Origin: Rhodococcus qingshengii
GTDB taxonomy: Bacteria; Actinomycetota; Actinomycetes; Mycobacteriales; Mycobacteriaceae
Assembly (NCBI RefSeq): GCF_021025955.1
Contig: NZ_JAJNCL010000012.1
Span: forward strand, 62,001-126,000
DNA: 64,000 nucleotides
Direction: 5' to 3'
The number at the start of each line of letters is the position of its first letter. Position 1 is the stretch's first letter. The position numbers and the translations under genes were made by a program. The notes beneath the pieces are model-generated. The model was not told where the DNA came from, ran no database searches, and saw nothing but the letters and a program-made list of their open reading frames with translations. Shown here piece by piece: positions 7,137-37,882 of this stretch.

Positions 7137-8126
7137 TTAGGCGGGCACCAGATCGCTCACGTCGGCGAGGAGTTCGAACGTGCGCAACCAAGCCTCGCGG
7201 TTGGTACCGGTTGACACCGTGATCAGCTCGTCGGCCTGCGCGTGCTCGGTGAACTCGTCGAGGTAGGCACGCACCTCCGTGGGCGTGCCGATGGCGCTGT
7301 ACTTGGTCATCTGAAGAACCTGCTGACCGGCGGGGGAGTCGAGCAGCATGTCCGCTTCGTCGTCCGTGAACTTGCGTCCGCGTCCGAGAAGAAGGCTGAC
7401 GCGCGAACGCTTGGCCGCGAGGAAGTCCTGCTGGGCCTGCTCATGGGTGTCGGCGGCGATGACGTTGACGCCGGCGATGACGTACGGCTCCGCCAGTTGC
7501 TCCGACGGCTTGAACTCGCGTCGGTAGATCGCAACGGCATCGCGCAGGGCGTTGGGAGCGAAGTGTGAGGCAAATGCATACGGCAGGCCGAGCATCGCGG
7601 CGAGCTTGGCGCCGAAGAGTGACGATCCGAGGATGTAGAGCGGAACGTGAGTGCCCTTGCCGGGAACGGCGTTGATTCCGGGGACGCGCGAGGTGTCGCC
7701 GAGGTAGCCCTGAAGCTCGAGTACGTCCTGCGGGAAGCTGTCCGAAGAACTCGGGTCGCGTCGCAGTGCCTGCATCGTCTTCTGATCACTACCGGGTGCG
7801 CGGCCGAGACCGAGATCGATGCGACCCGGGTGCAGTGTCTCGAGGGTGCCGAACTGCTCGGCGATCGTCAGCGGTGCGTGGTTGGGGAGCATGATGCCCC
7901 CGGCGCCGAGGCGGATTCTACTGGTGTTCGCGGCGACGTGGCTGATCAGGACGCTGGTTGCCGAAGAAGCGATGGAACCCATGTTGTGGTGCTCGGCGTA
8001 CCAGATTCGCTTGTAGCCCCACTCCTCGGCACGCTGCGCCAACGTCACGCTGGCGTCGAAGCTGTCTTTGGCGGTTTCGTTGTCGCCGATGTGGGCGAGG
8101 TCGAGGATGGAAAGTGGGACGGCCAT
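7137..8126 (-). CDS. LLM-class flavin-dependent oxidoreductase
   Basis: This 329-residue bacterial-luciferase-like TIM barrel begins [14 protein letters not shown] and contains the family stretches [14 protein letters not shown] and [15 protein letters not shown]. Such enzymes use reduced flavin (FMNH2 or F420H2) and O2 to oxidise a small substrate; it resembles the MsnO8-like subgroup. The ATG at 8126 is preceded by GAAAGG on the minus strand and is preferred over the longer frame. It is probably co-transcribed with the MFS gene downstream. The substrate is unknown. Confidence 0.87.
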
Positions 8127-15910: not shown

Positions 15911-17167
15911 TCAGCTGCCGAGTCCCTCGGCCCAGGGGTAGTTCTTCAGGTACGGATCCGGCTCGATCGGCTGTCCCGAATCCCAGACCGTGTAGATCAG
16001 TCCGTCGGAACGGATTTCGCCGATCCGAGCAGTCTTGGTGATGTGGTGGTTGTCGCCGTCGATGGTGACGAGTCCTTCGGGCGCTTGGAAAGTCACACCG
16101 TCGGCGTTGTCCTGAATATCCTTGACCGCAAACGAGTTGGCCTTCTCGACGGTGTTCTTCCAGAGGTAGACGGAGGTGTATGCCGCTTCCATCGGATCGG
16201 ACGTGGGCTTGTCCTGGCCGAACTTCGCCTTGTACGCTGCGACGAACTTCTTGTTCTCGGGGGAGTCGATTGTCTGGTAGTAGTTCCACGCCGTCAGCTG
16301 GCCTTCGACGTTCTGGACCCCGATTCCGCCGACCTCTTCCTCCGCAATGGAGACGGAGACGACGGGCATGTCGGCGGGCTTCAGGCCGACATTCGAGTAT
16401 TCACGGAAGAACGCAACGTTGGAATCGCCGTTGAGTGTGTTGAACACGGCATCCGCGTCGGCAGTGCGGACCTTGTTCACGATGGTGGAGAAGTCGGTCG
16501 AACCCAGAGGCGTGTAATCCTCGCCCTTGATCTCGATTCCGTTCGCTGCCGCGTACGCCTTGATGATGCGGTTCGCGGTCTGCGGGAACACGTAGTCGCT
16601 CCCGACCAGATACAGCGACTTGACGCCCTTCTCCTTCAGGTAATCCAGAGCGGGGATGATCTGCTGGTTGGTCGTTGCACCCGTGTAGAAGATGTTCTTC
16701 GAATCTTCCAGTCCCTCGTACTGGACCGGGTAGTAGAGCAAAGAGTTGTTGTCCTCGAACACCGGCAGCATGGCCTTACGGCTCGAGGAGGTCCAGCCAC
16801 CGAAAACTGCTGCGACGCAATCGCTGCTGATCAGTTTCTCGGCCTTCTCGGCGAACACCGTCGGCTCCGACGCGCCGTCCTCTGCCACGATCTGGATCTT
16901 CTTACCCAGTACACCGCCGGAATCGTTGATCTCCTGCACCGCCAACGAGATGGAGTCGCGGACCGTCACTTCACTGATGGCCATGGTGCCCGAGAGCGAA
17001 TTCAGGGAACCGACCTTGATCGTGTCTCCCGAGGTGTCGACGCACGACGTAGCCGTCGAATCTCCCGCTGCGGTGTCTGTCGCCTTGCTTCCGCAACCGG
17101 TGAGAACCAAGCCCAGCGCGGCGAGAGCGGCCGGCGCGGCAAGGGTGCGCTTCGAGAAGGTTCGCAT
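15911..17167 (-). CDS. urtA: Urea ABC transporter substrate-binding lipoprotein UrtA
   Basis: This 418-residue lipoprotein has signal peptide [19 protein letters not shown] and lipobox LTGC with Cys25. The mature part has the UrtA signatures [29 protein letters not shown] and [12 protein letters not shown]. It binds urea (or short amides, as the related FmdD does) outside the membrane and delivers it to UrtBC. The ATG at 17167 is preceded by GAAAGG; the longer frame is rejected because it would bury the signal peptide. First gene of the operon. Confidence 0.93.
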
Positions 17168-26782: not shown

Positions 26783-28195
26783 TCAGCGAATCACGTACGG
26801 CGAAATCGAACTCCGGTGCTCGCTGATATCGAGGTCTTTACCCAACGGGGGGAAGGCACGCTGCGGACAGTTGAGGCGTTCGCAGACGCGGCAGCCCGAG
26901 CCGATCGGCGTTCCCGGATTCGACTCGTCCAGATCCAGACCGTCGCTGTAGACGAGTCGGTGGGCGTGTCGAATCTCGCATCCCAATCCGATGGCGAAGA
27001 TCTTTGCGGGCTGTCCGTATCGAGCCGCTCGACGTTCGACCGTGCGCGCAACCCAGAGGTATCGGCGGCCGTCGGGCATCTGCGCGATCTGGGGCATGAT
27101 CTTGCCCGGATATGAGAACGTTTCGTAGACGTTCCACAGCGGGCACGTACCGCCGCTGGTGGAGAAGTGGAATCCGGTGGCGGACTGACGCTTCGACATG
27201 TTTCCGGCACGGTCGACACGTACGAACATGAAGGGGACCCCGCGAAGTTTGGGGCGCTGCAGGGTCGAGAGGCGGTGACAGATCGTTTCGTAGCTCGCGG
27301 AATAGAAGGCAGACATGCGCTCGATGTCGTAGCGGAAGTCCTCGGCAACCTCGTGAAACTGGCTGTAGGGCAGCACGGTGGCCGCAGCGAAATAGTTGGC
27401 CAAGCCAAGCTTCGCCAGGGAGACCGATGCTTCGCTGGTGAAGTTTCCCTCGGCCACCAACGAGTCGAGCAGCTCGCCGTGTTCGAGGTACGCGAGTTCT
27501 GTCGCGAACTTGAAGACCTGTTGCCCGCCCGAGAGCCTTGCGGAGATTTCCAGCACCCTGGTGTCGGGGTCGTAGCGATGAAGTATGTTCTCGCCCAAGT
27601 CGACTCGTCGAACGATCTGCACGTCGTGGACGGACTCGAGACGTCTGGCGATCTCGCCGGCGACGTCGCCACGGTGAAAGCGCATTCGGGCGGTGAGTTC
27701 TTCGGCTGCGGTGTCGAGATCGTGGATGTAGTTCTGTCGCTGATAGAAGTAGTCGCGCACTTCCTCGTGTGGCATGGTGATCGAACCGCTGCCGCTGCCG
27801 TCCGAGAAGCGGTCTTCCGTGGCTGCGGCGAGCTGGGCCGTCGTGTTGCGGAAGCGGCGATGCATGTTGACCATCGCCTTGGCGAGGCCGGGGTGGGTGG
27901 AGACCATCTCCGCGATTTCGTGGGCGTCGGCGTCGATACCCATCTCCTGATCGAGGGCAACTTCACGCATTTCCGCGATCAGGCGTGTGTCGTCCTGCGG
28001 GGAGAAGAAGGTGGTGTCGACACCGAAGACTTCACTGATTCGCAGGAGGACCGGCACGGTGAGTGGCCGAACGTCGTGCTCGATCTGATTGAGATAGCTT
28101 GCCGAGATCTCCAGCGTCTTGGCCAGCGAAGCCTGACTCAACCCGCGCTCGGTCCGCAGTTGGCGGAGCCGGACACCGACAAAGGTTTTCGACAT
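26783..28195 (-). CDS. ramB: RamB-type regulator of acetate/glyoxylate metabolism
   Basis: This 470-residue protein has an N-terminal XRE HTH at about 8-62 (RLRQLRTERGLSQASLAKTL), a long ScfR/IrrE-like middle domain, and a C-terminal Cys cluster GCRVCERLNC. This is the RamB architecture (M. tuberculosis Rv0465c, C. glutamicum RamB), which controls isocitrate lyase and related acetate genes in response to acyl-CoA status. The ATG at 28195 starts at MSKTFVGVRL; the longer frame has no support. aceA lies 3 kb away, and a CTTTGC box upstream suggests autoregulation. Confidence 0.92.
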   Translation of the reverse strand: MSKTFVGVRLRQLRTERGLSQASLAKTLEISASYLNQIEHDVRPLTVPVLLRISEVFGVDTTFFSPQDDTRLIAEMREVALDQEMGIDADAHEIAEMVSTHPGLAKAMVNMHRRFRNTTAQLAAATEDRFSDGSGSGSITMPHEEVRDYFYQRQNYIHDLDTAAEELTARMRFHRGDVAGEIARRLESVHDVQIVRRVDLGENILHRYDPDTRVLEISARLSGGQQVFKFATELAYLEHGELLDSLVAEGNFTSEASVSLAKLGLANYFAAATVLPYSQFHEVAEDFRYDIERMSAFYSASYETICHRLSTLQRPKLRGVPFMFVRVDRAGNMSKRQSATGFHFSTSGGTCPLWNVYETFSYPGKIMPQIAQMPDGRRYLWVARTVERRAARYGQPAKIFAIGLGCEIRHAHRLVYSDGLDLDESNPGTPIGSGCRVCERLNCPQRAFPPLGKDLDISEHRSSISPYVIR

Positions 28196-28223
28196 TTTCC
28201 CAGGATACGAGCGACGGTCCGGC

Positions 28224-28233
28224 TTCGCAAAGG
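28224..28233. promoter_or_regulatory. RamB-like box upstream of ramB
   Basis: TTCGCAAAGG (minus strand CCTTTGCGAA) lies 29 bp before the ramB ATG. It shares the CTTTGC core of the RamB consensus known from Corynebacterium (ACTTTGCAAA, from memory). RamB autoregulation is described in relatives. Confidence 0.35.
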
Positions 28234-28265
28234 TGGGTTCGCAGTCTTCGCACAGGGGCTCCGCC

Positions 28266-28311
28266 CCCGTGAGTGGTTGAGGAGCCTTGGCACTCCCTAA
28301 CCACTCACGGG
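28266..28311 (-). terminator. Strong hairpin 3' of fmdA
   Basis: A 13-bp perfect inverted repeat (CCCGTGAGTGGTT and AACCACTCACGGG, with a 20-nt loop) begins 9 bp after the fmdA stop. There is no clear U-tract. It probably ends the fmdB-fmdA transcript before the ramB promoter. Confidence 0.6.
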
Positions 28312-28319
28312 CCGAAGGC

Positions 28320-29579
28320 TTAGACCCTGTTCTCCGAACGAGGGGCGCCGATTCCGGGATCGATCTGGAACGGTCCGCTCGACGACGGTGCGAGCGGGAA
28401 GTCGAAGATCGCGGTCGGGAGATACACCGTCGAACACGAGTTGGGGATATCCACGACACCCGACAGACGGCCCTCGATCGGTGCCGCACCGAGTAGCAGG
28501 TACGCCTGCTCTGGCGCGTACCCGAATTTGGTCAGGTACTCGATCGCGTGCAGGCACGCACGCTGGTACGACAGATGTGAATCCAGGTACTTCTGCTCGC
28601 CGTCCAACGTGACGGACGTGCCCGAGAATGCAAGCCACTCGGAATACTGCGGATCCGTGTTGCCCGGCATGAAGATGGCGTTCTCGGAAACACCGTAGGT
28701 ATCCATTCCACCCTTGATGATGTCCACACGAAGATCGATGAAGCCGCCCATCTCGATGGCACCGCAGAAAGTGATCTCACCGTCGCCCTGAGAGAAGTGA
28801 AGATCGCCGACCGACAGATTCGCACCGTCCACGAACACCGGATAGAAGATTCGGCTGCCCTTGGTGAGGTTCTTGATGTCCTGATTTCCGCCGTTCTCGC
28901 GCGGGGGAGCGGTGCGAGCCGCCTCGCCGGCCACGCGTGTGTACTCGTCACCGGTCAAGGTTCCCAGAACGGCATCGCGGGGCTCAGGCGGAAGCGCAAG
29001 CGGGGGAACCCGATTGGGGTCGGTGGCAATCAAGGCACCCTCGCGGGCATTCCACTTGGCGAGCAAGGCTGCCGACGGAGCCGTGCCCATGAGTCCTGGG
29101 TGGACGATGCCTGTGAACGAGACGTGCGGAATGTGACGTGACGTCGCCGTTTGTCCGGAGAAATCCCAGACAGCCTTGTACGCGTCGGGGAACTGTTCTG
29201 TGAGGAAGCCGCCGCCGTTGTTCCGGGGGAAGATGCCTGTGTACCCCCAGCCTTGGCCGGCCAACGGACCAGAATCCTCTTGGGGGATAGGACCGATATC
29301 CAAGATGTCGACGATCAGCAGGTCGCCGGGCTTCGCGCCTTCGACGGAAAAGGGGCCGGACAGCGTGTGGACCGTGGTCAGTGGCGCATTGAGAATGTCG
29401 TCGGCGGAGTCGTCGTTGTGGATTGCGCCGTCGAACCATTCGCGGCAATGGACACGAAACGCATCACCGGGTTTCACCGTCACCGCTGCCGGGATGTCCG
29501 GGTGCCACCGATTGTGGCCGACGATCGCCTGGTCGGTGAATTTCTTGGCGGAATCGAGTGGAAACAGCAGTTCAGGCAT
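28320..29579 (-). CDS. fmdA: Formamidase (acetamidase/formamidase family)
   Basis: This 419-residue enzyme hydrolyses formamide (possibly other short amides) to the acid and ammonia. Family signatures include PGDAFRVHCREWFDGAI, HPGLMGTAPS, FSQGDGEITFCGAIEMGG and YLLLGAAPIEGRLSGVVD. The ATG at 29579 has GAGGAG 5 bp upstream; a GTG at 29585 lies too close to that ribosome site. The fmdB gene is directly upstream, as in known fmd clusters. Together with the urt importer it supports an amide-nitrogen scavenging theme. Confidence 0.92.
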   Translation of the reverse strand: MPELLFPLDSAKKFTDQAIVGHNRWHPDIPAAVTVKPGDAFRVHCREWFDGAIHNDDSADDILNAPLTTVHTLSGPFSVEGAKPGDLLIVDILDIGPIPQEDSGPLAGQGWGYTGIFPRNNGGGFLTEQFPDAYKAVWDFSGQTATSRHIPHVSFTGIVHPGLMGTAPSAALLAKWNAREGALIATDPNRVPPLALPPEPRDAVLGTLTGDEYTRVAGEAARTAPPRENGGNQDIKNLTKGSRIFYPVFVDGANLSVGDLHFSQGDGEITFCGAIEMGGFIDLRVDIIKGGMDTYGVSENAIFMPGNTDPQYSEWLAFSGTSVTLDGEQKYLDSHLSYQRACLHAIEYLTKFGYAPEQAYLLLGAAPIEGRLSGVVDIPNSCSTVYLPTAIFDFPLAPSSSGPFQIDPGIGAPRSENRV

Positions 29580-29660
29580 ATGCACTCCTCATTCTCGAAG
29601 AAACGGAAAACTCGTGGCGGCAGGACTTTCGTGTCGGATCGTGACTCGCGGCGAGGGTGC

Positions 29661-30027: not shown

Positions 30028-30657
30028 TCAGCGGAGGTACACAACTGCGTTGTCTCCGCCGGTGCAGGTGACGATGCCGGAGGCCACCTTGCACGCCATC
30101 GTGTACTCCTTGCCGGTCACCGGACTACGTGCGGAAACCGTGCTGGATCGACCGGCGGCACCGGAGTTTCCGTAGGCGATCCGAACTGCCTCGGCAAACT
30201 CGCACGATGTCTTACCCCCGCTGGTCGCGGACTCCTTGTAACTTCCGGCAGGCTGCCCGCCGGGGCAGGCGGACGCGCCTGCCGGGAAGTTCGCGGCGCG
30301 TGTGGTCGTCGGGGATGTTGTGCTGGGAGCAGTTGTCGTGGCACCGGTGGTGCCGGGTGTGTTCGCGGCGGTGGTGGTGTGGGCGGCTCCACCGGCTGTT
30401 GAATTGGGGACGTCCTTCGGCCACAGAACCCATGCAAGCCCGCCGAAGAGAGCCAATACGGTGATGACACCGATGATCGATACCGGAATCACCCAGCCGG
30501 GTCGTCGTGGCGGCGGATTTCCACGTGGCGGACCAGGCGGGAATCCCTGCGGTGGGGGATAGGACTGCGGCGCGGCCCGGTATCCCAACTGCGGCGGTTG
30601 AGGCCCGGATTGCGACCATGCCTGGTTGTTCGGTGGCTGCTGATAGTTGTCCGGCAC
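30028..30657 (-). CDS. Pro-rich single-pass membrane protein, function unknown
   Basis: This 209-residue protein has a cytoplasmic Pro/Gln-rich N-terminus (1-53), one transmembrane helix at about 55-79, an extracytoplasmic Thr/Ala linker (85-122), and a small C-terminal domain with four Cys (CPGG, SCEF, MACKV, VTCTGG), likely two disulfides. I do not recognise a functional family; the layout is common in mycobacterial and rhodococcal envelope proteins. It is the first minus-strand gene upstream of fmdB, 79 bp away. Confidence 0.75.
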   Translation of the reverse strand: MPDNYQQPPNNQAWSQSGPQPPQLGYRAAPQSYPPPQGFPPGPPRGNPPPRRPGWVIPVSIIGVITVLALFGGLAWVLWPKDVPNSTAGGAAHTTTAANTPGTTGATTTAPSTTSPTTTRAANFPAGASACPGGQPAGSYKESATSGGKTSCEFAEAVRIAYGNSGAAGRSSTVSARSPVTGKEYTMACKVASGIVTCTGGDNAVVYLR

Positions 30658-30997
30658 AGCTTTATCGCCCGTTCAGTGGTGTCGAGGGCGTCGAACGACA
30701 AGTCATGGTTCGACAGCATATGGCCGGCGAACGTGTTGTCGGGGGCTTTGCGAGACCTCGATCTCGGGAAAGTGCTCGCGCGAATGCTGTTGCGACGAAG
30801 TGATTGCGGTCACTTGCGGGCAATGAAGTTGACTCCGAAGTAGCGGACAGGCCCGTTCCGTGCGCTGCGCGAACAGGCGTAATTCACTAGTGGCGAAGTT
30901 GAGTGCATTTCGTTCACAGCCTGCGGTTTCATTACTACTCGCCAGTACAGAACCTGTCCGAATGGGTAGTGCTCGCCGTGTAGAAATCTTCACAGAC

Positions 30998-31009
30998 TTA
31001 GCAAAGTGC
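30998..31009. promoter_or_regulatory. RamB-like box upstream of aceA
   Basis: TTAGCAAAGTGC reads GCACTTTGCTAA on the minus strand. It shares ACTTTGC and the trailing AA with the RamB consensus as known from Corynebacterium (from memory). It lies 162 bp before the aceA ATG. Confidence 0.45.
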
Positions 31010-31113
31010 GTTGAAAAGGTAGCGAAGATTGGCATTAGCAACAGGTAGACGGCACTTTTTCGATGTGCCATTCTCGGTAAGTACACAAGAAGGGCCTGGC
31101 AAGTATGTGAAGT

Positions 31114-31127
31114 AGTACGCACGTACT
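31114..31127. promoter_or_regulatory. 14-bp palindrome AGTACG-CA-CGTACT before aceA
   Basis: This perfect inverted repeat is centred about 50 bp before the aceA ATG and framed by GGCCTG and CAGGCC. It could be an operator for a second regulator or an RNA hairpin in the leader. The binding protein is unknown. Confidence 0.45.
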
Positions 31128-31171
31128 GCTCACAACAGGCCGGACCAGCAGATCAAAGAGATGGAGTCTTG

Positions 31172-32461
31172 ATGTCGACCACCGGCACCCCGAAGACCGC
31201 AGCTGAGCTCCAGCAGGATTGGGACACCAACCCTCGCTGGAAGGGCGTTACTCGTAACTACACGGCCGATCAGGTCGTCAAGCTCCAGGGCACCGTCGTC
31301 GAGGAGCAGACCCTCGCTCGTCGCGGATCCGAGATCCTGTGGGATCTCGTGAACAACGAGGACTACATCAACTCCCTCGGTGCACTTACCGGCAACATGG
31401 CTGTGCAGCAGGTTCGCGCCGGCCTGAAGGCCATCTACCTCTCCGGTTGGCAGGTTGCAGGCGACGCGAACCTCTCGGGCCACACGTACCCGGACCAGAG
31501 CCTCTACCCGGCCAACTCGGTTCCGACCGTCGTTCGTCGCATCAACAACGCACTGCTGCGCGCCGACGAGATCGCCAAGACCGAGGGTGACACCTCCGTC
31601 AGCAACTGGCTCGCTCCGATCGTTGCCGACGCCGAAGCCGGCTTCGGTGGCGCTCTCAACGCTTACGAGCTGCAGAAGGCCATGATCGGCGCCGGCGCTG
31701 CCGGTGTCCACTGGGAGGATCAGCTCGCTTCGGAGAAGAAGTGCGGCCACCTCGGTGGCAAGGTGCTCATCCCCACGCAGCAGCACATCCGCACCCTGAC
31801 CTCGGCTCGCCTGGCTTCCGACGTTGCGGACGTTCCGTCCGTCATCATCGCCCGCACCGACGCTGAGGCCGCAACCCTCATCACCTCCGACGTTGACGAG
31901 CGTGACCGCCCGTTCCTCGACGGAACCCGCACGGCTGAAGGCTTCTACGGCGTCAAGAACGGCATCGAGCCCTGCATCGCTCGCGCCAAGGCTTACGCAC
32001 CGTACGCAGACCTCATCTGGATGGAGACCGGCGTGCCGGATCTCGAGGTTGCAAAGAAGTTCGCCGAGTCCGTTCGCAGCGAATTCCCGGACCAGCTCCT
32101 GGCCTACAACTGCTCCCCTTCCTTCAACTGGAAGGCGCACCTGGACGACGCGACCATCGCGAAGTTCCAGAAGGAGCTCGGCGCAATGGGCTTCAAGTTC
32201 CAGTTCATCACGCTGGCCGGCTTCCACTCGCTCAACTACGGCATGTTCGACCTGGCCTACGGCTACGCCCGCGAAGGCATGACGGCATTCGTCGACCTGC
32301 AGGAGCGCGAGTTCAAGGCTGCTGAAGAGCGTGGCTTCACCGCCATCAAGCACCAGCGTGAGGTTGGCGCCGGCTACTTCGACACCATCGCCACCACCGT
32401 TGACCCCAACACCTCGACGGCAGCTCTCAAGGGCTCCACCGAAGAGGGCCAGTTCCACTAA
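31172..32461 (+). CDS. aceA: Isocitrate lyase
   Basis: This 429-residue enzyme splits isocitrate to glyoxylate and succinate, the entry to the glyoxylate shunt during growth on acetate or fatty acids. The catalytic motif KKCGHLGGK lies at 189-197 with Cys191, and the substrate-binding NCSPSFNWK stretch is present. The length matches the short actinobacterial Icl1 form. The ATG at 31172 is preferred to the adjacent TTG. Codon use is strongly biased to optimal codons, suggesting high expression. ramB lies 3 kb away and fadB2 follows. Confidence 0.97.
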
Positions 32462-32477
32462 GAACTGACTTCGGGTG

Positions 32478-32507
32478 GGGGAGAGGCTCGGCTTCGGGTC
32501 TCTCCCC
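32478..32507 (+). terminator. Hairpin 3' of aceA
   Basis: GGGGAGAG and CTCTCCCC form an 8-bp stem with a 14-nt loop, 17 bp after the aceA stop. The U-tract is weak. It probably reduces read-through into fadB2. Confidence 0.6.
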
Positions 32508-32594
32508 TGCTTGTATCACCGATCTACTTTCTCTCGTCTTCAAGGCAGTTCCAATTGCGTCGGCCACCAGTGTCGACGCAGTTCGAAGTGCTTT

Positions 32595-32602
32595 CTTTGC
32601 AA
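32595..32602. promoter_or_regulatory. RamB-like box upstream of fadB2
   Basis: CTTTGCAA within TTCTTTGCAAC matches the RamB core. It lies 63 bp before the fadB2 start and touches the first copy of a 19-bp tandem repeat. Confidence 0.4.
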
Positions 32603-32635
32603 CACCTTGATCAGACTGCAACACCTTCACCAGAC
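32598..32635. repeat. 19-bp direct tandem repeat in the fadB2 leader
   Basis: TGCAACACCTT-GATC-AGAC (32598-32616) is followed immediately by TGCAACACCTT-CACC-AGAC (32617-32635), 17 of 19 bases identical. The repeat sits between the RamB-like box and the fadB2 ribosome site, so it may be part of the promoter. Confidence 0.6.
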
Positions 32636-32664
32636 AAACTCCACGAGACAAACAAGGAGCTGAC

Positions 32665-33561
32665 GTGACCAGCGAAAAAATTCAGCGCGTCGGCGTTATC
32701 GGCGCCGGAATCATGGGTGCCGGAATCGCCGAGGTGTGCGCCCGCGCACATGTCGATGTTCTGGTCTTCGAGCAGACTCGCGAGCTTGCAGCAGCCGGGC
32801 GTTCACGCATCCTGCGTTCGCTCGACCGCGGCGTGAGCAGCGGAAAGATCACAGAACGCGAGCGTGAGCAGGCCGCATGGCGTCTGCGTTTCACCTCCGA
32901 TCTGGGCGATTTCGCGGACCGCCAGCTCGTCGTGGAGGCCGTCGTCGAAGACGAGAAGATCAAGAGCGAAATCTTCGCCGAGCTCGACGCGGTCGTGACG
33001 GACCCGGATGCGGTTCTCGCGTCCAACACGTCGTCGATCCCGATCATGAAGCTCGGCATCTCGACCAAGCGTCCCGAGCGAGTCATCGGTATGCACTTCT
33101 TCAACCCGGTGCCGGTTCTGCCGCTCGTCGAATTGGTGACAACGCTCAAGACCAGTGCCTCCGTCTCGCAGCGCGCCGAGGCTTTTGCCAGCGACATCCT
33201 CGGCAAGCAGGTCGTCCGCAGTGCCGACCGCTCCGGCTTTGTCGTCAACGCGCTCCTCGTGCCGTACCTGCTCTCGGCGATCCGCATGGTCGAGTCGGGC
33301 TTCGCCACCAAGGAAGACATCGACAAGGCAACCGTTCTGGGCCTCGCGCACCCCATGGGTCCGCTGGCGCTGACCGACCTGGTCGGCCTCGACACCGTCA
33401 AGTCCATCGCCGACTCCATGTACGAAGAGTTCAAGGAGCCGCTGTACTCCGCTCCGCCGCTGCTCCTGCGTATGGTCGAAGCCGGATTGACCGGCAAGAA
33501 GTCCGGCGCGGGCTTCTACGAATACGCCGACAACGGTCGCTCCACCAAGCAGGCAAGCTAA
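32665..33561 (+). CDS. fadB2: 3-hydroxybutyryl-CoA dehydrogenase
   Basis: This 298-residue NAD(P)-dependent enzyme interconverts 3-hydroxybutyryl-CoA and acetoacetyl-CoA in short-chain fatty acid and butanoate metabolism. The Rossmann motif GVIGAGIMGAGIAE is at 10-23 and the catalytic-His stretch GMHFFNPVPVLPLVE is present; the C-terminal domain ends SGAGFYEYA. GTG at 32665 has AAGGAG upstream. Like M. tuberculosis FadB2 (Rv0468), it follows isocitrate lyase. Codon bias is high. Confidence 0.94.
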   Translation: MTSEKIQRVGVIGAGIMGAGIAEVCARAHVDVLVFEQTRELAAAGRSRILRSLDRGVSSGKITEREREQAAWRLRFTSDLGDFADRQLVVEAVVEDEKIKSEIFAELDAVVTDPDAVLASNTSSIPIMKLGISTKRPERVIGMHFFNPVPVLPLVELVTTLKTSASVSQRAEAFASDILGKQVVRSADRSGFVVNALLVPYLLSAIRMVESGFATKEDIDKATVLGLAHPMGPLALTDLVGLDTVKSIADSMYEEFKEPLYSAPPLLLRMVEAGLTGKKSGAGFYEYADNGRSTKQAS

Positions 33562-33571
33562 GGCCCAACGC

Positions 33572-33619
33572 CCCTGTGCGCCTTTCTGGTAGTTCCGGCT
33601 ACCACAAAGGCGCACAGGG
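33572..33619 (+). terminator. Very strong hairpin between fadB2 and metE-like gene
   Basis: There is a 14-bp perfect outer stem (CCCTGTGCGCCTTT and AAAGGCGCACAGGG) with an inner 5-bp stem (GGTAG and CTACC). It starts 10 bp after the fadB2 stop and ends 33 bp before the next ATG. It is probably a terminator of fadB2. Its position in the metE-like leader also allows an attenuator role, but no alternative structure is evident. Confidence 0.7.
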
Positions 33620-33652
33620 CGCTCGCGCCCCTCGGTTAGAAAGGTCGACCGC

Positions 33653-35959
33653 ATGTCCAGCAGCACTGCAGCATTCGGCTCCAGCGTCCTGGGGTATCCG
33701 CGCATCGGGCCGCGCCGTGAGCTCAAGCGCGCCCTCGAGTCCTACTGGCACGGCACTTCGGACAAGGACGCACTCCTCGCGGTCGCCAAGGAACTCCAGG
33801 AATCGACCTGGAGCGAATTGGCTGCGACGGGTTTGAGCCAGGTTCCCGGAAACACCTTCTCCTTCTACGATCACGTGCTCGACAATGCGCTTCTTTTCGG
33901 CGCAGTGCCGGAGCGGTTCAAGCCGCTCGAGGGCGCACTCGATTCGCTCGATTTCTACTTCACGATGGCCCGCGGTCGCCCCGACTTCCCGCCTCTCGAG
34001 TTGGTGCGTTTCTTCGGCACGAACTACTACTACCGTCAGCCCGAAATCGACGCGAACACGGTGTTCTCGCTCAACTCGGAAGCACTGCTCGACGAGTTCG
34101 AACGTGCGAAGGCGCGCGGCATCGAATTGCGCCCCGTCATCATGGGACCCGTTTCGCTGCTTCTGCTCTCGAAGGTCGGGCCTGCCACCGAGAAGTCCGA
34201 TCCGAACTTCACCCCACTCGATCTGTTGGACGCAATCCTGCCCGAGTACGAGAGGCTCTTCGAGCAGCTCGCCAAGGCCGGTGCCACCTGTGTTCAGTTG
34301 GACGAGCCTTCGGTGACCGAGGACCGCACCGCCGAGGAGCTCGCCGCTCTGGGACGTGCGTACGAGAAGCTTTCGACGGCCCCGCTGCGCCCGCGCCTGT
34401 TGGTGACGGGTCCGTACGGCAAGTTCGGCGAAGCCCTCAACATCCTGGCGCCCACCAAGATCGAGGCCTTCGGTCTGGACTTGGTGCACGGCAAGATCAC
34501 GGCCGAGGAACTGGCCGCGGTGCCGAACATCAAGCGCAAGCGCATCTACGCAGGCGTCGTCGACGGTCGCAACGTGTGGCGCGTCGACCGGTTCAACACC
34601 TTGACGTACCTCAACGAACTCAAGGACGTCGTGCCTGACCTCGTCGTCTCCACGTCGTCGTCGCTGCTGCACGTGCCGTACGACGTGCTCTCCGAGTACG
34701 ACATCCCGGGAGACGTCGCAGACCGTCTGGCTTTTGCGAAGCAGAAGGTCGGCGAGGTCGTCTCACTGGCAAAGGCGCTCACCGAAGGTCCTTCGGACAA
34801 GTGGCGTAAGCGTCCGACGAAGGTGCACTTCAAGCTCAAGCACGCAGTCCGTGCTCGGGTCAACGCGATCAAGCCCGAAGATCGCGTGCGTGCACCGTAC
34901 GAGGAGCGTCGCAAAGCGCAGCAGGAACGGTTGAACCTGCCTTTGGTTCCGGCCCAGACACTGGGTTCGTTCCCGCAGACCGACGCGATTCGCCAGGCGC
35001 GTTACGAACTCGGCCAGGGGCGTTTGGAGTGGGACGACTACTACAAGCGCATCCAGGAAGAGATCGAGCGCACAATCCGTCTGCAAGAGGACATTGGTCT
35101 CGATGTTTTCGTGCACGGTGAGCACGAGCGCAACGACATGGTCCAGTACTTCGCCGAACTGCTCGAGGGCTATGCCTTCACGCACAACGGTTGGGTTCAG
35201 GCCTACGGATCTCGTTGTACGCGTCCGCCGATTCTCTACGGCGACATCGCACGTCCGAAGCCGATGACGGTCGAGTGGATTGCCTACGCGCAGTCGCTGA
35301 CCGACAAGCCGGTCAAGGGCATGCTGACGGGTCCGGTCACCATGATCGCTCGTTCGTTCGTTCGTCAGGATCAGCCGCTCTACGAAACGGCAGAGCAACT
35401 GGCACTTGTCATTCGAGACGAAATCGCGGATCTCGAAGCCGCCGGAATCGCCATCATCCAGGTGGACGAGCCGGCAATTCGTGAACTGCTGCCACTGCGT
35501 GAGGACGGCCGGGAGGCCTACCTGGAGTGGGCCGTCGACGCGTTCCGTCTGGCAACAGGTGGAGCGAAGCCGGAAACACAGATCCACACACATCTGACGT
35601 ACTCCGCTCGGTCGTCGGTGGTCGACGCCATCGAACGGTTGGACGCAGATGTGACGGCTATCGTCGCGACCCGCTCCATCACGTGGGTTCTCGAAGCACT
35701 CAAGGAAGGCGCGCTTACACACGGCGTCGGCCCCGGTGTCTACGAATCTCGCTCGGCTCGGATTCCCGACATCGACGAGCTCGACGAATTGCTCACTGAG
35801 GCAAGCGAATCGATCTCACTCGATCGTTTGTGGGCAAACCCGGACGGCGGCCTCAAGACCCGCCATCCCTGGCAGCTCGAGCCTTCGCTGCGCAACATGG
35901 TTGCGGCCGCGAGGCGCCTGCGTCGTCGCGCCGAGCAAGCCGAGCGCGACGCCGGGTAA
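33653..35959 (+). CDS. metE: MetE-family protein lacking three of four zinc ligands
   Basis: This 768-residue protein has the full two-domain length of cobalamin-independent methionine synthase, which methylates homocysteine from 5-methyltetrahydrofolate. The N-terminal domain starts LGYPRIGPRRELKRALE, and the C-terminal barrel has LGSFPQTDAIR, HNGWVQAYGSRC and VKGMLTGPVT. The zinc site is broken. Aligned to E. coli MetE with a constant offset of 6, His641 is kept (His647) but Cys643, Glu665 and Cys726 are Thr649, Val671 and Gly732 (stretches IHTHLTYS, AIVATRS, NPDGGLKTR). Without zinc to activate homocysteine thiol, normal activity is doubtful. The frame is intact with good codon bias, so it looks like a maintained paralogue, not a pseudogene. 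No B12 riboswitch fits upstream. Confidence 0.9.
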   Translation: MSSSTAAFGSSVLGYPRIGPRRELKRALESYWHGTSDKDALLAVAKELQESTWSELAATGLSQVPGNTFSFYDHVLDNALLFGAVPERFKPLEGALDSLDFYFTMARGRPDFPPLELVRFFGTNYYYRQPEIDANTVFSLNSEALLDEFERAKARGIELRPVIMGPVSLLLLSKVGPATEKSDPNFTPLDLLDAILPEYERLFEQLAKAGATCVQLDEPSVTEDRTAEELAALGRAYEKLSTAPLRPRLLVTGPYGKFGEALNILAPTKIEAFGLDLVHGKITAEELAAVPNIKRKRIYAGVVDGRNVWRVDRFNTLTYLNELKDVVPDLVVSTSSSLLHVPYDVLSEYDIPGDVADRLAFAKQKVGEVVSLAKALTEGPSDKWRKRPTKVHFKLKHAVRARVNAIKPEDRVRAPYEERRKAQQERLNLPLVPAQTLGSFPQTDAIRQARYELGQGRLEWDDYYKRIQEEIERTIRLQEDIGLDVFVHGEHERNDMVQYFAELLEGYAFTHNGWVQAYGSRCTRPPILYGDIARPKPMTVEWIAYAQSLTDKPVKGMLTGPVTMIARSFVRQDQPLYETAEQLALVIRDEIADLEAAGIAIIQVDEPAIRELLPLREDGREAYLEWAVDAFRLATGGAKPETQIHTHLTYSARSSVVDAIERLDADVTAIVATRSITWVLEALKEGALTHGVGPGVYESRSARIPDIDELDELLTEASESISLDRLWANPDGGLKTRHPWQLEPSLRNMVAAARRLRRRAEQAERDAG

Positions 35960-35977
35960 ATCACGTAAAGAACTAGT

Positions 35978-36012
35978 CATGGAGGGGCCTGCGATTTGCA
36001 GGTCCCTCCATG
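35978..36012 (+). terminator. Hairpin 3' of the metE-like gene
   Basis: The outer stem is CATGGAGGG/CCCTCCATG and the inner stem CCTGC/GCAGG around GATTT. It begins 18 bp after the stop and lies 20 bp before the alcohol dehydrogenase ATG. It likely separates the two transcripts. Confidence 0.65.
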
Positions 36013-36031
36013 CACGGGTAGGCATGTGTGC

Positions 36032-37072
36032 ATGGTTACTGCTGCTGCTTATGCCGCGACGTCCGCTGACGGTCCCCTCGAGAAGACCACCGTCGAACGC
36101 CGCGAGCTCGGTCCACTGGACATTCTCATCGACATCAAATTTGCAGGCATCTGCCATTCCGACATCCACACAGCTCGCAACGAGTGGGGCGGAGCCAAGT
36201 ACCCGATCGTCCCCGGACACGAAATCGCCGGCGTCGTCGCCGCTGTGGGTTCCGACGTCACCAAGCACAAGGTCGGCGACCGCGTCGGCGTCGGCTGCTT
36301 CGTCGACTCGTGCGGGGAGTGCGAAGCCTGCACCGCCGGCGAAGAGCAGTACTGCCGCAAGGGTGTGACCGGTACATACAACGCCACCGGACGCGACGGC
36401 GAGCGCACACAGGGTGGCTACTCGACGCACATCGTCGTCACCGAGCACTTCGTGCTCTCGATCCCGGAGGGCATCGAACTCGACGTTGCCGCGCCGCTCC
36501 TGTGCGCAGGCATCACCTTGTACTCACCGCTGCGGCACTGGAACGCCGGCCCCGGCAAGAAGGTCGCCATCATCGGTTTCGGCGGCCTCGGTCACGTCGG
36601 TGTGAAGATCGCCAAGGCGCTCGGCGCGGAAGTCACCGTCCTGAGCCAGACGCTCGGCAAGAAAGAAGACGGGCTCCGCCTCGGCGCCGATCACTACTAC
36701 GCGACCAACGACCGTGAGACGTTCAAGGCTCTTCGCGGCGAGTTCGACCTGATCCTCAACACGGTCTCGGTCAATCTCGACATCGACGCCTACATGTCCC
36801 TGCTCGCCATCAACGGCACTCTCGTCGAACTGGGCCTGCCGGAGAAGCCGATCGAAGTTCGAGCATTCTCGCTCGCCGCAAACCGTCGTAGCCTCGCCGG
36901 CTCCATGGTCGGCGGTATCCCGCAGACACAGGAGATGCTCGATTTCTGCGCCGAGCACGGCATCGGTGCAGAAATCGAACTGATCCCGGCGAGCGACATC
37001 AACGATGCTTACGAGCGCGTGATCAAGAGCGATGTGCGATACCGATTCGTGATCGACACCGCAACGATCTGA
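36032..37072 (+). CDS. Zinc-dependent alcohol dehydrogenase (CAD/AdhC-like MDR)
   Basis: This 346-residue medium-chain dehydrogenase oxidises an alcohol or reduces an aldehyde with NAD(P). Catalytic zinc ligands are Cys41 (GICHSDIH), His63/Glu64 (PGHEIAG) and a Cys in PLLCAGIT; structural zinc ligands are Cys94, 97, 100 and 108. The coenzyme loop is GFGGLGHVG. It belongs to the cinnamyl-alcohol-dehydrogenase-like/YahK group, which takes a broad range of aldehydes. The ATG at 36032 (MVTAAAYAA) fits the family start. Confidence 0.92.
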
Positions 37073-37087
37073 CCCGCTCAGTCCCAC

Positions 37088-37882
37088 TCAGTCGAGTTGC
37101 TCGCGGAGATTACTCAGTGTCTTCGCGAGCAATCTCGACACGTGCATCTGGGATACGCCGACTTTCTCGGCGATCTGTGTTTGCGTCAGGTTTCCGAAGA
37201 ATCTGAGCATCAACACCGTCCGCTCTCGTTCGGGAAGCTTGTCGAGAAGAGGACGCAACGCCTCGTGATTCTCGACGTTCTCGAGTGCGGCGTCGTAGTC
37301 ACCGAGTGTCTCCACGAGCGGGAGATCATCGGTGTGATTGGACGCGGCACCGTCGACCGAGACGGTCTGGTACGCATTGCCGGCGATCAACGCCTGGGCG
37401 ACTTCTTCGCGCTCGATTCCCAACGTCTCGGCCAACTCGTCGACGGTCGGCGCGTGCCCGAGTTGTTGTGACAGCTCACTGATCGCCTGCCCGAGTTGGA
37501 AATGCAACTCCTTCATCCGACGCGGAACTCGTAGCGCCCAACCGGTGTCACGGAAGTGTCGCCGAACCTCACCCATCACGGTGGGAACTGCGAACGAGAC
37601 GAAATCGGAGCCGCGAGTGGAATCGAAACGGTCGACGGCGTTGACCAGACCGAGCCGCGCCACCTGAACCAAATCGTCGTGCGCCTCGCCGCGACCGTCG
37701 AATCGTCTGGCAATGTGCTCGGCCAACGGTAGGCACCTGGTGATGAGTGCAGTGCGCACTCGTTCGTACTCGTGGCTGTGGGGTTCGAGGGTCCGCATTT
37801 CCTCGAAAACTGGTATGACGTCCCGATATTCGTCGGTGGACCGCCGACGCGGGCGTGACGGGCCGTCTGCGGAAGCGGTCAC
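37088..37882 (-). CDS. SigF/SigB-family RNA polymerase sigma factor
   Basis: This 264-residue group-3 sigma factor has region 2 (HDDLVQVARLGLVNAVDRFD, VPTVMGEVRRHFRDTGWALR), region 3 (ELAETLGIEREEVAQAL) and a region 4 HTH (QTQIAEKVGVSQMHVSRLLA). GTG at 37882 overlaps the anti-sigma stop by 4 bp, so the pair is translationally coupled like usfX-sigF. It probably directs stress or stationary-phase genes. Confidence 0.9.
   Translation of the reverse strand: MTASADGPSRPRRRSTDEYRDVIPVFEEMRTLEPHSHEYERVRTALITRCLPLAEHIARRFDGRGEAHDDLVQVARLGLVNAVDRFDSTRGSDFVSFAVPTVMGEVRRHFRDTGWALRVPRRMKELHFQLGQAISELSQQLGHAPTVDELAETLGIEREEVAQALIAGNAYQTVSVDGAASNHTDDLPLVETLGDYDAALENVENHEALRPLLDKLPERERTVLMLRFFGNLTQTQIAEKVGVSQMHVSRLLAKTLSNLREQLD

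Follow-up and report, generated by a model that had tools for sequence, protein, structure and literature searches.

Epoxyalkane:coenzyme M transferase, a zinc-dependent enzyme that acts on a thiol, is an example of a MetE fold taken over for a catabolic role in certain Rhodococcus and Xanthobacter strains. Within the same superfamily, the core methionine synthases MesA to MesD have a single barrel of the C-terminal type with a zinc site. The zinc ligands are not conserved in the MesB-like proteins of Chloroflexales and in MesC of MSBL-1 (FSHG, YCDQ, YREQ; Gly for Glu665), and Price et al. (2021) suggested a different function for the MSBL-1 group (passages of PMC7857596). Here we describe a full-length member of the superfamily from Rhodococcus qingshengii that we named zinc-less MetE-like protein (ZLM). 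Like the zinc-less MesB-like and MesC proteins, it belongs to the MetE superfamily and has no conserved set of zinc ligands, but those are core families with no second barrel, whereas ZLM has two barrels, an H-x-V/I-G pattern at the ligand positions and a constant gene neighborhood. It differs from MesA to MesD in having two barrels and in missing three ligands. With epoxyalkane:coenzyme M transferase it would share the recruitment of a MetE fold, although ZLM is devoid of the zinc ligands of that enzyme. Zinc-less superfamily members had already been noted in other groups, and for the full-length ZLM clade we found no description in open PMC papers. A zinc-less MetE beside aceA was likewise absent from the titles, abstract beginnings and passages of such papers that were searched, including passages of PMC10699116, PMC4262357, PMC12472514, and PMC9426449; a metE and an isocitrate lyase gene have been placed on one genomic region in Nocardia (passage of PMC3751702).

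The window, i.e., the whole stretch of 64,000 nucleotides that was analyzed, carries the ZLM gene at positions 33653..35959 on the + strand. The frame is intact, as first annotated: it starts with ATG and is open over its full length, encoding 768 amino acids that include the two MetE barrels. Both MetE domains were recognized (PF08267, 350.6 bits; PF01717, 416.2 bits), and the protein passes the general MetE equivalog model NF003556 with 967.3 bits against a cut-off of 541. With the MetE equivalog TIGR01371, it reached 881.1 bits and stayed below the curated cut-off of 929.95. Three other ZLM proteins scored 811.2 to 891 bits, so that all four tested fell short; the canonical MetE encoded in this genome passed with 1052.1 bits. 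The predicted structure (mean pLDDT of 84.9) matched the double barrel of solved MetE structures (PDB 1u1h, 4l5z, 1t7l) with TM-scores of about 0.9 and up to 0.93. This model served for the fold match only. Its confidence drops below 50 in the segment 516-521, where one of the folate-tail residues lies. GC3 was 0.78 for the ZLM gene, as compared with 0.84 for aceA, 0.82 for fadB2, and 0.80 for adh nearby.

According to the initial annotation, only one of the four zinc ligands of MetE is left in this protein. A phmmer alignment to Arabidopsis MetE (1u1h; 660.9 bits), which spans ZLM residues 10-760, bears this out, the ligand losses being directly visible. The sole ligand kept is His647 (CAT, 35591..35593, + strand). 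Thr649 (ACG, 35597..35599), Val671 (GTC, 35663..35665), and Gly732 (GGC, 35846..35848), all on the + strand, take the places of E. coli Cys643, Glu665, and Cys726, respectively, and re-reading these three codons gave the same letters as before. The E. coli numbering of zinc-ligand and substrate residues was taken from passages of PMC7857596, and evidence from mutants had already assigned the His and the two Cys to zinc binding in that enzyme (passage of PMC539065). Also replaced, by Arg567 (35351..35353, +), is the Trp that stacks on the pterin in Thermotoga maritima MetE (Trp539; passage of PMC539065).

We then counted residues in 91 distinct ZLM and 53 canonical MetE sequences, duplicates and proteins shorter than 700 amino acids being excluded. 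All four zinc ligands were present in 53/53 canonical proteins, and Cys649, Glu671, and Cys732 were each absent from 91/91 ZLM. Position 649 was Thr in 39, Gly in 35, Ser, Pro, or Ala in four each, Asn in three and another residue in two, and never Cys; Glu was seen there in two ZLM loci. Position 671 was Val (87) or Ile (4), and position 732 was Gly in all but one sequence, which had Phe. Trp567, found in 53/53 canonical proteins, occurred in 0/91 ZLM, which had Arg (84), Phe (4), Leu (2), or Gly (1). The His of GPGVYDIH, which we take to be the catalytic His694 of E. coli, was conserved in 53/53 canonical proteins; in ZLM this position, 700 (codon 35750..35752, +), was Arg in 89 sequences and His in two. 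The barrel motifs had otherwise been considered intact. This held for the frame and for both barrels but not for Trp567 and His700, nor, more broadly, for 27 positions at which one residue is found in at least 90% of ZLM and another in at least 90% of canonical MetE; these include an Ala-to-Thr change at 673, Glu-to-Trp at 678, and ESR in place of DIH at 698-700.

The residues that grip the substrates were, for the most part, retained. S439, E490, M496, R521, D605, H647, and R22 were invariant in 91/91 ZLM. Three of these, S439, E490, and D605 (E. coli Ser433, Glu484, and Asp599), are homocysteine contacts, and their T. maritima equivalents hold the carboxyl and amino groups of homocysteine (passage of PMC539065). 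The basic groove for the folate tail was also kept (R22 and R521 in 91/91, K25 in 90/91, and R524 in 35/35 sequences of a 35-sequence alignment). In T. maritima, the corresponding Arg15, Lys18, Arg493, and Arg496 hold the folate tail by its first glutamate and the equivalent of E611 binds the pterin (passages of PMC539065); the mapping of T. maritima residues onto ZLM is our own, by motif. E611 was present in 84/91 ZLM and was Thr or Gln in the other seven. Taken together, ZLM has lost the metal ligands and the stacking residue but retains most of both substrate clamps.

To see how ZLM relates to other MetE proteins, we built a quick tree of 84 proteins, in which all 31 ZLM fell on one side of a single branch (SH-aLRT 100). 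The T/V/G triad had been proposed as a clade marker; there is indeed one ZLM clade, but the exact triad does not define it, since positions 649, 671, and 732 vary. Among 80 named loci, the 29 at ≥62% identity were all H-x-V/I-G and the 51 at 48-56% identity were all H-C-E-C, with no intermediate ligand pattern between the two. Within the genus, ZLM was present in 27/28 genomes, the sole miss being a 74% complete assembly. In a family sample, at least 150 of 301 genomes had a match (62-100% identity), and 24 of 31 genera were represented among the matches listed; this family-wide count is of matches at ≥62% identity, the ligands having been checked in the fetched loci only. The clade has members in Rhodococcus, Nocardia, Williamsia, Dietzia, and their relatives. 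Profile searches of the order (121 genomes) and the class (197 genomes) sampled these groups rather than exhausting them, and the best-scoring 48 loci were fetched: 3 were ZLM, all within the family, and 45 were H-C-E-C. No ZLM was seen outside the family among these, as all 39 out-of-family loci fetched, one of them twice, encode a normal MetE.

A sequencing error, an assembly artefact or a decaying duplicate could in principle account for missing ligands. We give this explanation practically no credence, and it is refuted by losses common to 91 distinct sequences, by the presence of ZLM across the genus and by dN/dS values of 0.056-0.129 (five pairs), which compare with 0.126-0.128 for canonical MetE (two pairs). 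In one genome pair, ZLM was even 85.8% identical as opposed to 77.4% for canonical MetE. These sequence comparisons indicate that ZLM is under purifying selection and agree with the initial view of a maintained protein.

The initial annotation had suggested looking for a second methionine synthase, and the same genome turned out to encode both a canonical MetE (54% identity to ZLM, all four zinc ligands) and a MetH. Across the genus, a MetE-type match at 52-54% identity was present in 23/28 genomes and MetH was matched in 28/28, 27 of them over the cut-off. We also chose 35 genomes from 15 genera in which ZLM apparently stands alone as a MetE-type protein; canonical MetE as a query returned one full-length match in each, which was ZLM by place or score. 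MetH was matched in 35/35 of these genomes, 34 over the cut-off. The two sets share three genomes, which leaves 0/60 genomes without a MetH match. One of these genomes, a single contig that also has no canonical MetE, carries MetH in two abutting frames (G030:C1:1747257-1750774), which may reflect a naturally split enzyme, a frameshift, or a mistake in the sequence. A cobalamin riboswitch stood directly upstream of canonical metE in 3/4 loci, including that of the genome studied here, but none was detected at the four ZLM loci tested, and Rfam found no family in the window. At the canonical locus of the latter genome (L065), the cobalamin riboswitch at 7636-7844 precedes metE, and a SAM riboswitch lies some 9 kb further (16835-16928).

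The neighbors of ZLM had been described as acetate and aldehyde genes, and profile models confirmed this. Upstream on the + strand are aceA for isocitrate lyase (31169..32461; NF011645, 766.9 bits, cut-off 562), the first gene of the conserved run, and fadB2 for 3-hydroxybutyryl-CoA dehydrogenase (32665..33561; NF005875, 523 bits, cut-off 319). Downstream is a zinc alcohol/aldehyde dehydrogenase gene (35996..37072, +), Ahr-like by NF047908 (315.7 bits, below the cut-off of 470). RamB, a regulator of acetate metabolism, is encoded at 26786..28486 on the - strand (NF038139, 857.6 bits, cut-off 700; RamB part from residue 101). In 35/35 representative loci, aceA and fadB2 lie on the ZLM strand, and upstream of it wherever coordinates were read. 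At the 29 named ZLM loci, aceA was found in 27 and fadB2 in 28, the misses being at contig ends, and neither gene was seen beside canonical MetE in 51 loci. A similar dehydrogenase was near ZLM in 14/35 loci and shared its strand in 12 of them. A RamB-like gene (57-90% identity) was inside the fetched stretch at 28/35 loci, adjoining aceA divergently at several of them; the remaining seven loci may truly lack the gene or carry it beyond the stretch. The motif TTTGCAAA, presumably the RamB-type consensus, had 0 matches in the window, so that gene order is the sole pointer to putative control by RamB. A sigma-70 promoter scan of 30600-37200 gave one site, on the opposite strand and at chance level.

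Two long and strong stem-loops with no T-run bracket the ZLM gene, one in the gap after fadB2 (33572-33619) and the other in the gap before the dehydrogenase gene (35979-36012), and may be terminators or elements of mRNA processing or stability. Similar hairpins were present at most loci of the genus and at some others. We rejected them as a clade-wide element, as they are mostly missing from distant genera. Because strong flanking hairpins occur in much of the genus, co-transcription with aceA-fadB2 is only putative. In genomes devoid of ZLM, the aceA-fadB2 pair was present in 9/10 tested, which implies that ZLM was either lost from, or added to, such a pair. In G159 (locus L205), whose genus includes genomes with ZLM, the dehydrogenase gene directly follows fadB2 and ZLM is cleanly absent, which shows that ZLM is dispensable. 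In three other loci with no ZLM (L211, L212, and L209), a mycolic acid cyclopropane synthetase gene sits after fadB2 instead.

We favor, with moderate confidence, the view that ZLM is a repurposed MetE-fold protein of C2/glyoxylate metabolism and not a methionine synthase. It would be an old paralogue of the cobalamin-independent methionine synthase, apparently inherited vertically and changed in function, and made during life on C2 units such as ethanol, acetate, or fatty acids via the glyoxylate shunt. In favor of this view, we count the residue losses, the retained substrate contacts (passages of PMC539065 and PMC7857596), the single clade, the aceA-fadB2 and RamB context, the purifying selection, the other methionine synthases, the TIGR01371 failures, the absence of a riboswitch at the ZLM loci tested, and the IGTS8 expression data (passages of PMC8557817). 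Against it, we count the lack of a match to TTTGCAAA, the flanking hairpins, the G159 locus, the NF003556 score, and the methyl-donor changes that accompany MetE abundance in IGTS8 (passages of PMC8557817). With no zinc there should be no homocysteine thiolate, and hence ZLM should not act as a methionine synthase; homocysteine methylation has presumably been lost. Since ZLM scores as a methionine synthase with a standard annotation model but is devoid of the metal ligands, annotations and metabolic models probably assign it the wrong reaction.

As for what ZLM does instead, the likeliest chemistry would be a metal-free one-carbon transfer between a folate and a carboxylate substrate that is not a thiol and is required while cells grow on C2 units. 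The cleft might still bind polyglutamyl folate, and the C-terminal barrel an amino-acid-like or carboxylate compound; in this barrel, the two positive charges of Arg567 and Arg700 would stand in for zinc, Trp, and His. Folate binding is our guess from the kept tail contacts; the loss of the stacking Trp and the Thr or Gln at E611 in 7/91 sequences count against it. More specifically, but only tentatively, we propose a hitherto undescribed folate reaction that is linked to the glyoxylate shunt and needs no metal: a one-carbon (or glyoxylate-derived) unit would be exchanged between polyglutamyl folate and an amino acid or non-thiol carboxylate, the latter substrate being held by the old homocysteine clamp and the two new arginines. 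If true, the MetE double barrel would have a second, unrecognized function, and about half of the family genomes sampled would encode it.

Two other readings share part of this evidence, and we think that metal-free one-carbon transfer is the most likely of the three, a pseudoenzyme the next and a zinc-free methionine synthase the least. The loss of the zinc ligands, Trp, and His together with the constant aceA-fadB2 neighborhood would also suit a non-catalytic protein, either a sensor or store of folate or amino acids or a partner of isocitrate lyase or FadB2. We regard this as rather unlikely, as the 27 group-specific replacements suggest that a new site has formed, not merely that the old one was emptied: they include former active-site positions (567, 671, 700, and 732) and positions near them in sequence (673, 678, 698, and 699). 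An essential partnership with AceA or FadB2 is further weakened by the aceA-fadB2 pairs that occur with no ZLM in 9/10 tested genomes. That ZLM is still a methionine synthase, one that dispenses with zinc or uses another metal to activate homocysteine and serves as a low-sulfur form under sulfur starvation, seems to us improbable. The invariant homocysteine contacts S439, E490, D605, and M496 speak for it, as do the 190- to 273-fold increase of a two-Cys MetE in strain IGTS8, the concomitant methyl-donor change, and the interpretation of both by the authors (passages of PMC8557817). However, the zinc ligands and the stacking Trp are lost in 91/91 sequences and the His of DIH in 89/91, the ligands concerned include residues shown to bind zinc in E. 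coli MetE (passage of PMC539065), and MetH is matched in each of the 35 genomes with no normal MetE. The ZLM loci tested have no cobalamin riboswitch, the dibenzothiophene cultures of IGTS8 are confounded by ethanol (passages of PMC8557817), and a low-sulfur version fits poorly with the 19/29 ZLM that carry four Cys.

The C2-related reading that we prefer bears on published work with R. qingshengii IGTS8. In this strain, a MetE (IGTS8_peg5907; 2 Cys, 7 Met) was 190- to 273-fold more abundant with dibenzothiophene than with sulfate, which the authors explained by methionine synthesis under sulfur starvation. In the same passages, levels of the methyl donor 5-methyltetrahydropteroyltriglutamate were raised early in log phase and later fell, which they ascribed to its use by methionine synthase (PMC8557817). 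This change in the methyl donor fits methionine synthase use but would equally fit a folate-dependent ZLM. The ZLM of the window and of four other genomes at 99-100% identity have 2 Cys and 8 Met including the start, whereas the canonical MetE of the same genome and that of R. erythropolis NBRC 15567 have 4 Cys, and 0/51 canonical proteins have fewer than three; ZLM members are not generally sulfur-poor, with four Cys in 19/29. Dibenzothiophene was given from a 100 mM stock in ethanol, and to the dibenzothiophene cultures only (passages of PMC8557817), so that the carbon source is confounded with the sulfur source. By our arithmetic, a 1:200 dilution corresponds to 0.5% ethanol, or roughly 86 mM as against 20 mM glucose. 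The medium also contained cyanocobalamin (passage of PMC8557817), under which a riboswitch-controlled metE should be repressed. The induced MetE of IGTS8 is thus probably ZLM, responding to ethanol. If so, the conclusion on sulfur starvation and methionine would have to be reread as an effect of ethanol, and the deletion proposed for better desulfurization would need rereading too. MetE induction has also been reported with selenite (PMC13414329) and in the cold (PMC6080646), in passages that leave the copy unspecified.

Other features of the ZLM loci were recorded. The listed TTG start of the dehydrogenase gene falls within the downstream hairpin, and the in-frame ATG at 36032 is the likelier start. 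A formamidase is encoded at 28320-29585, between RamB and aceA (694 bits, cut-off 500), and also lies close to aceA in four of the five other genus loci of 18 kb, L067-L070 but not L071. Finally, a DUF445 protein is encoded about 5 kb downstream of ZLM in 21/35 loci (e.g., L043, 2905-5598).
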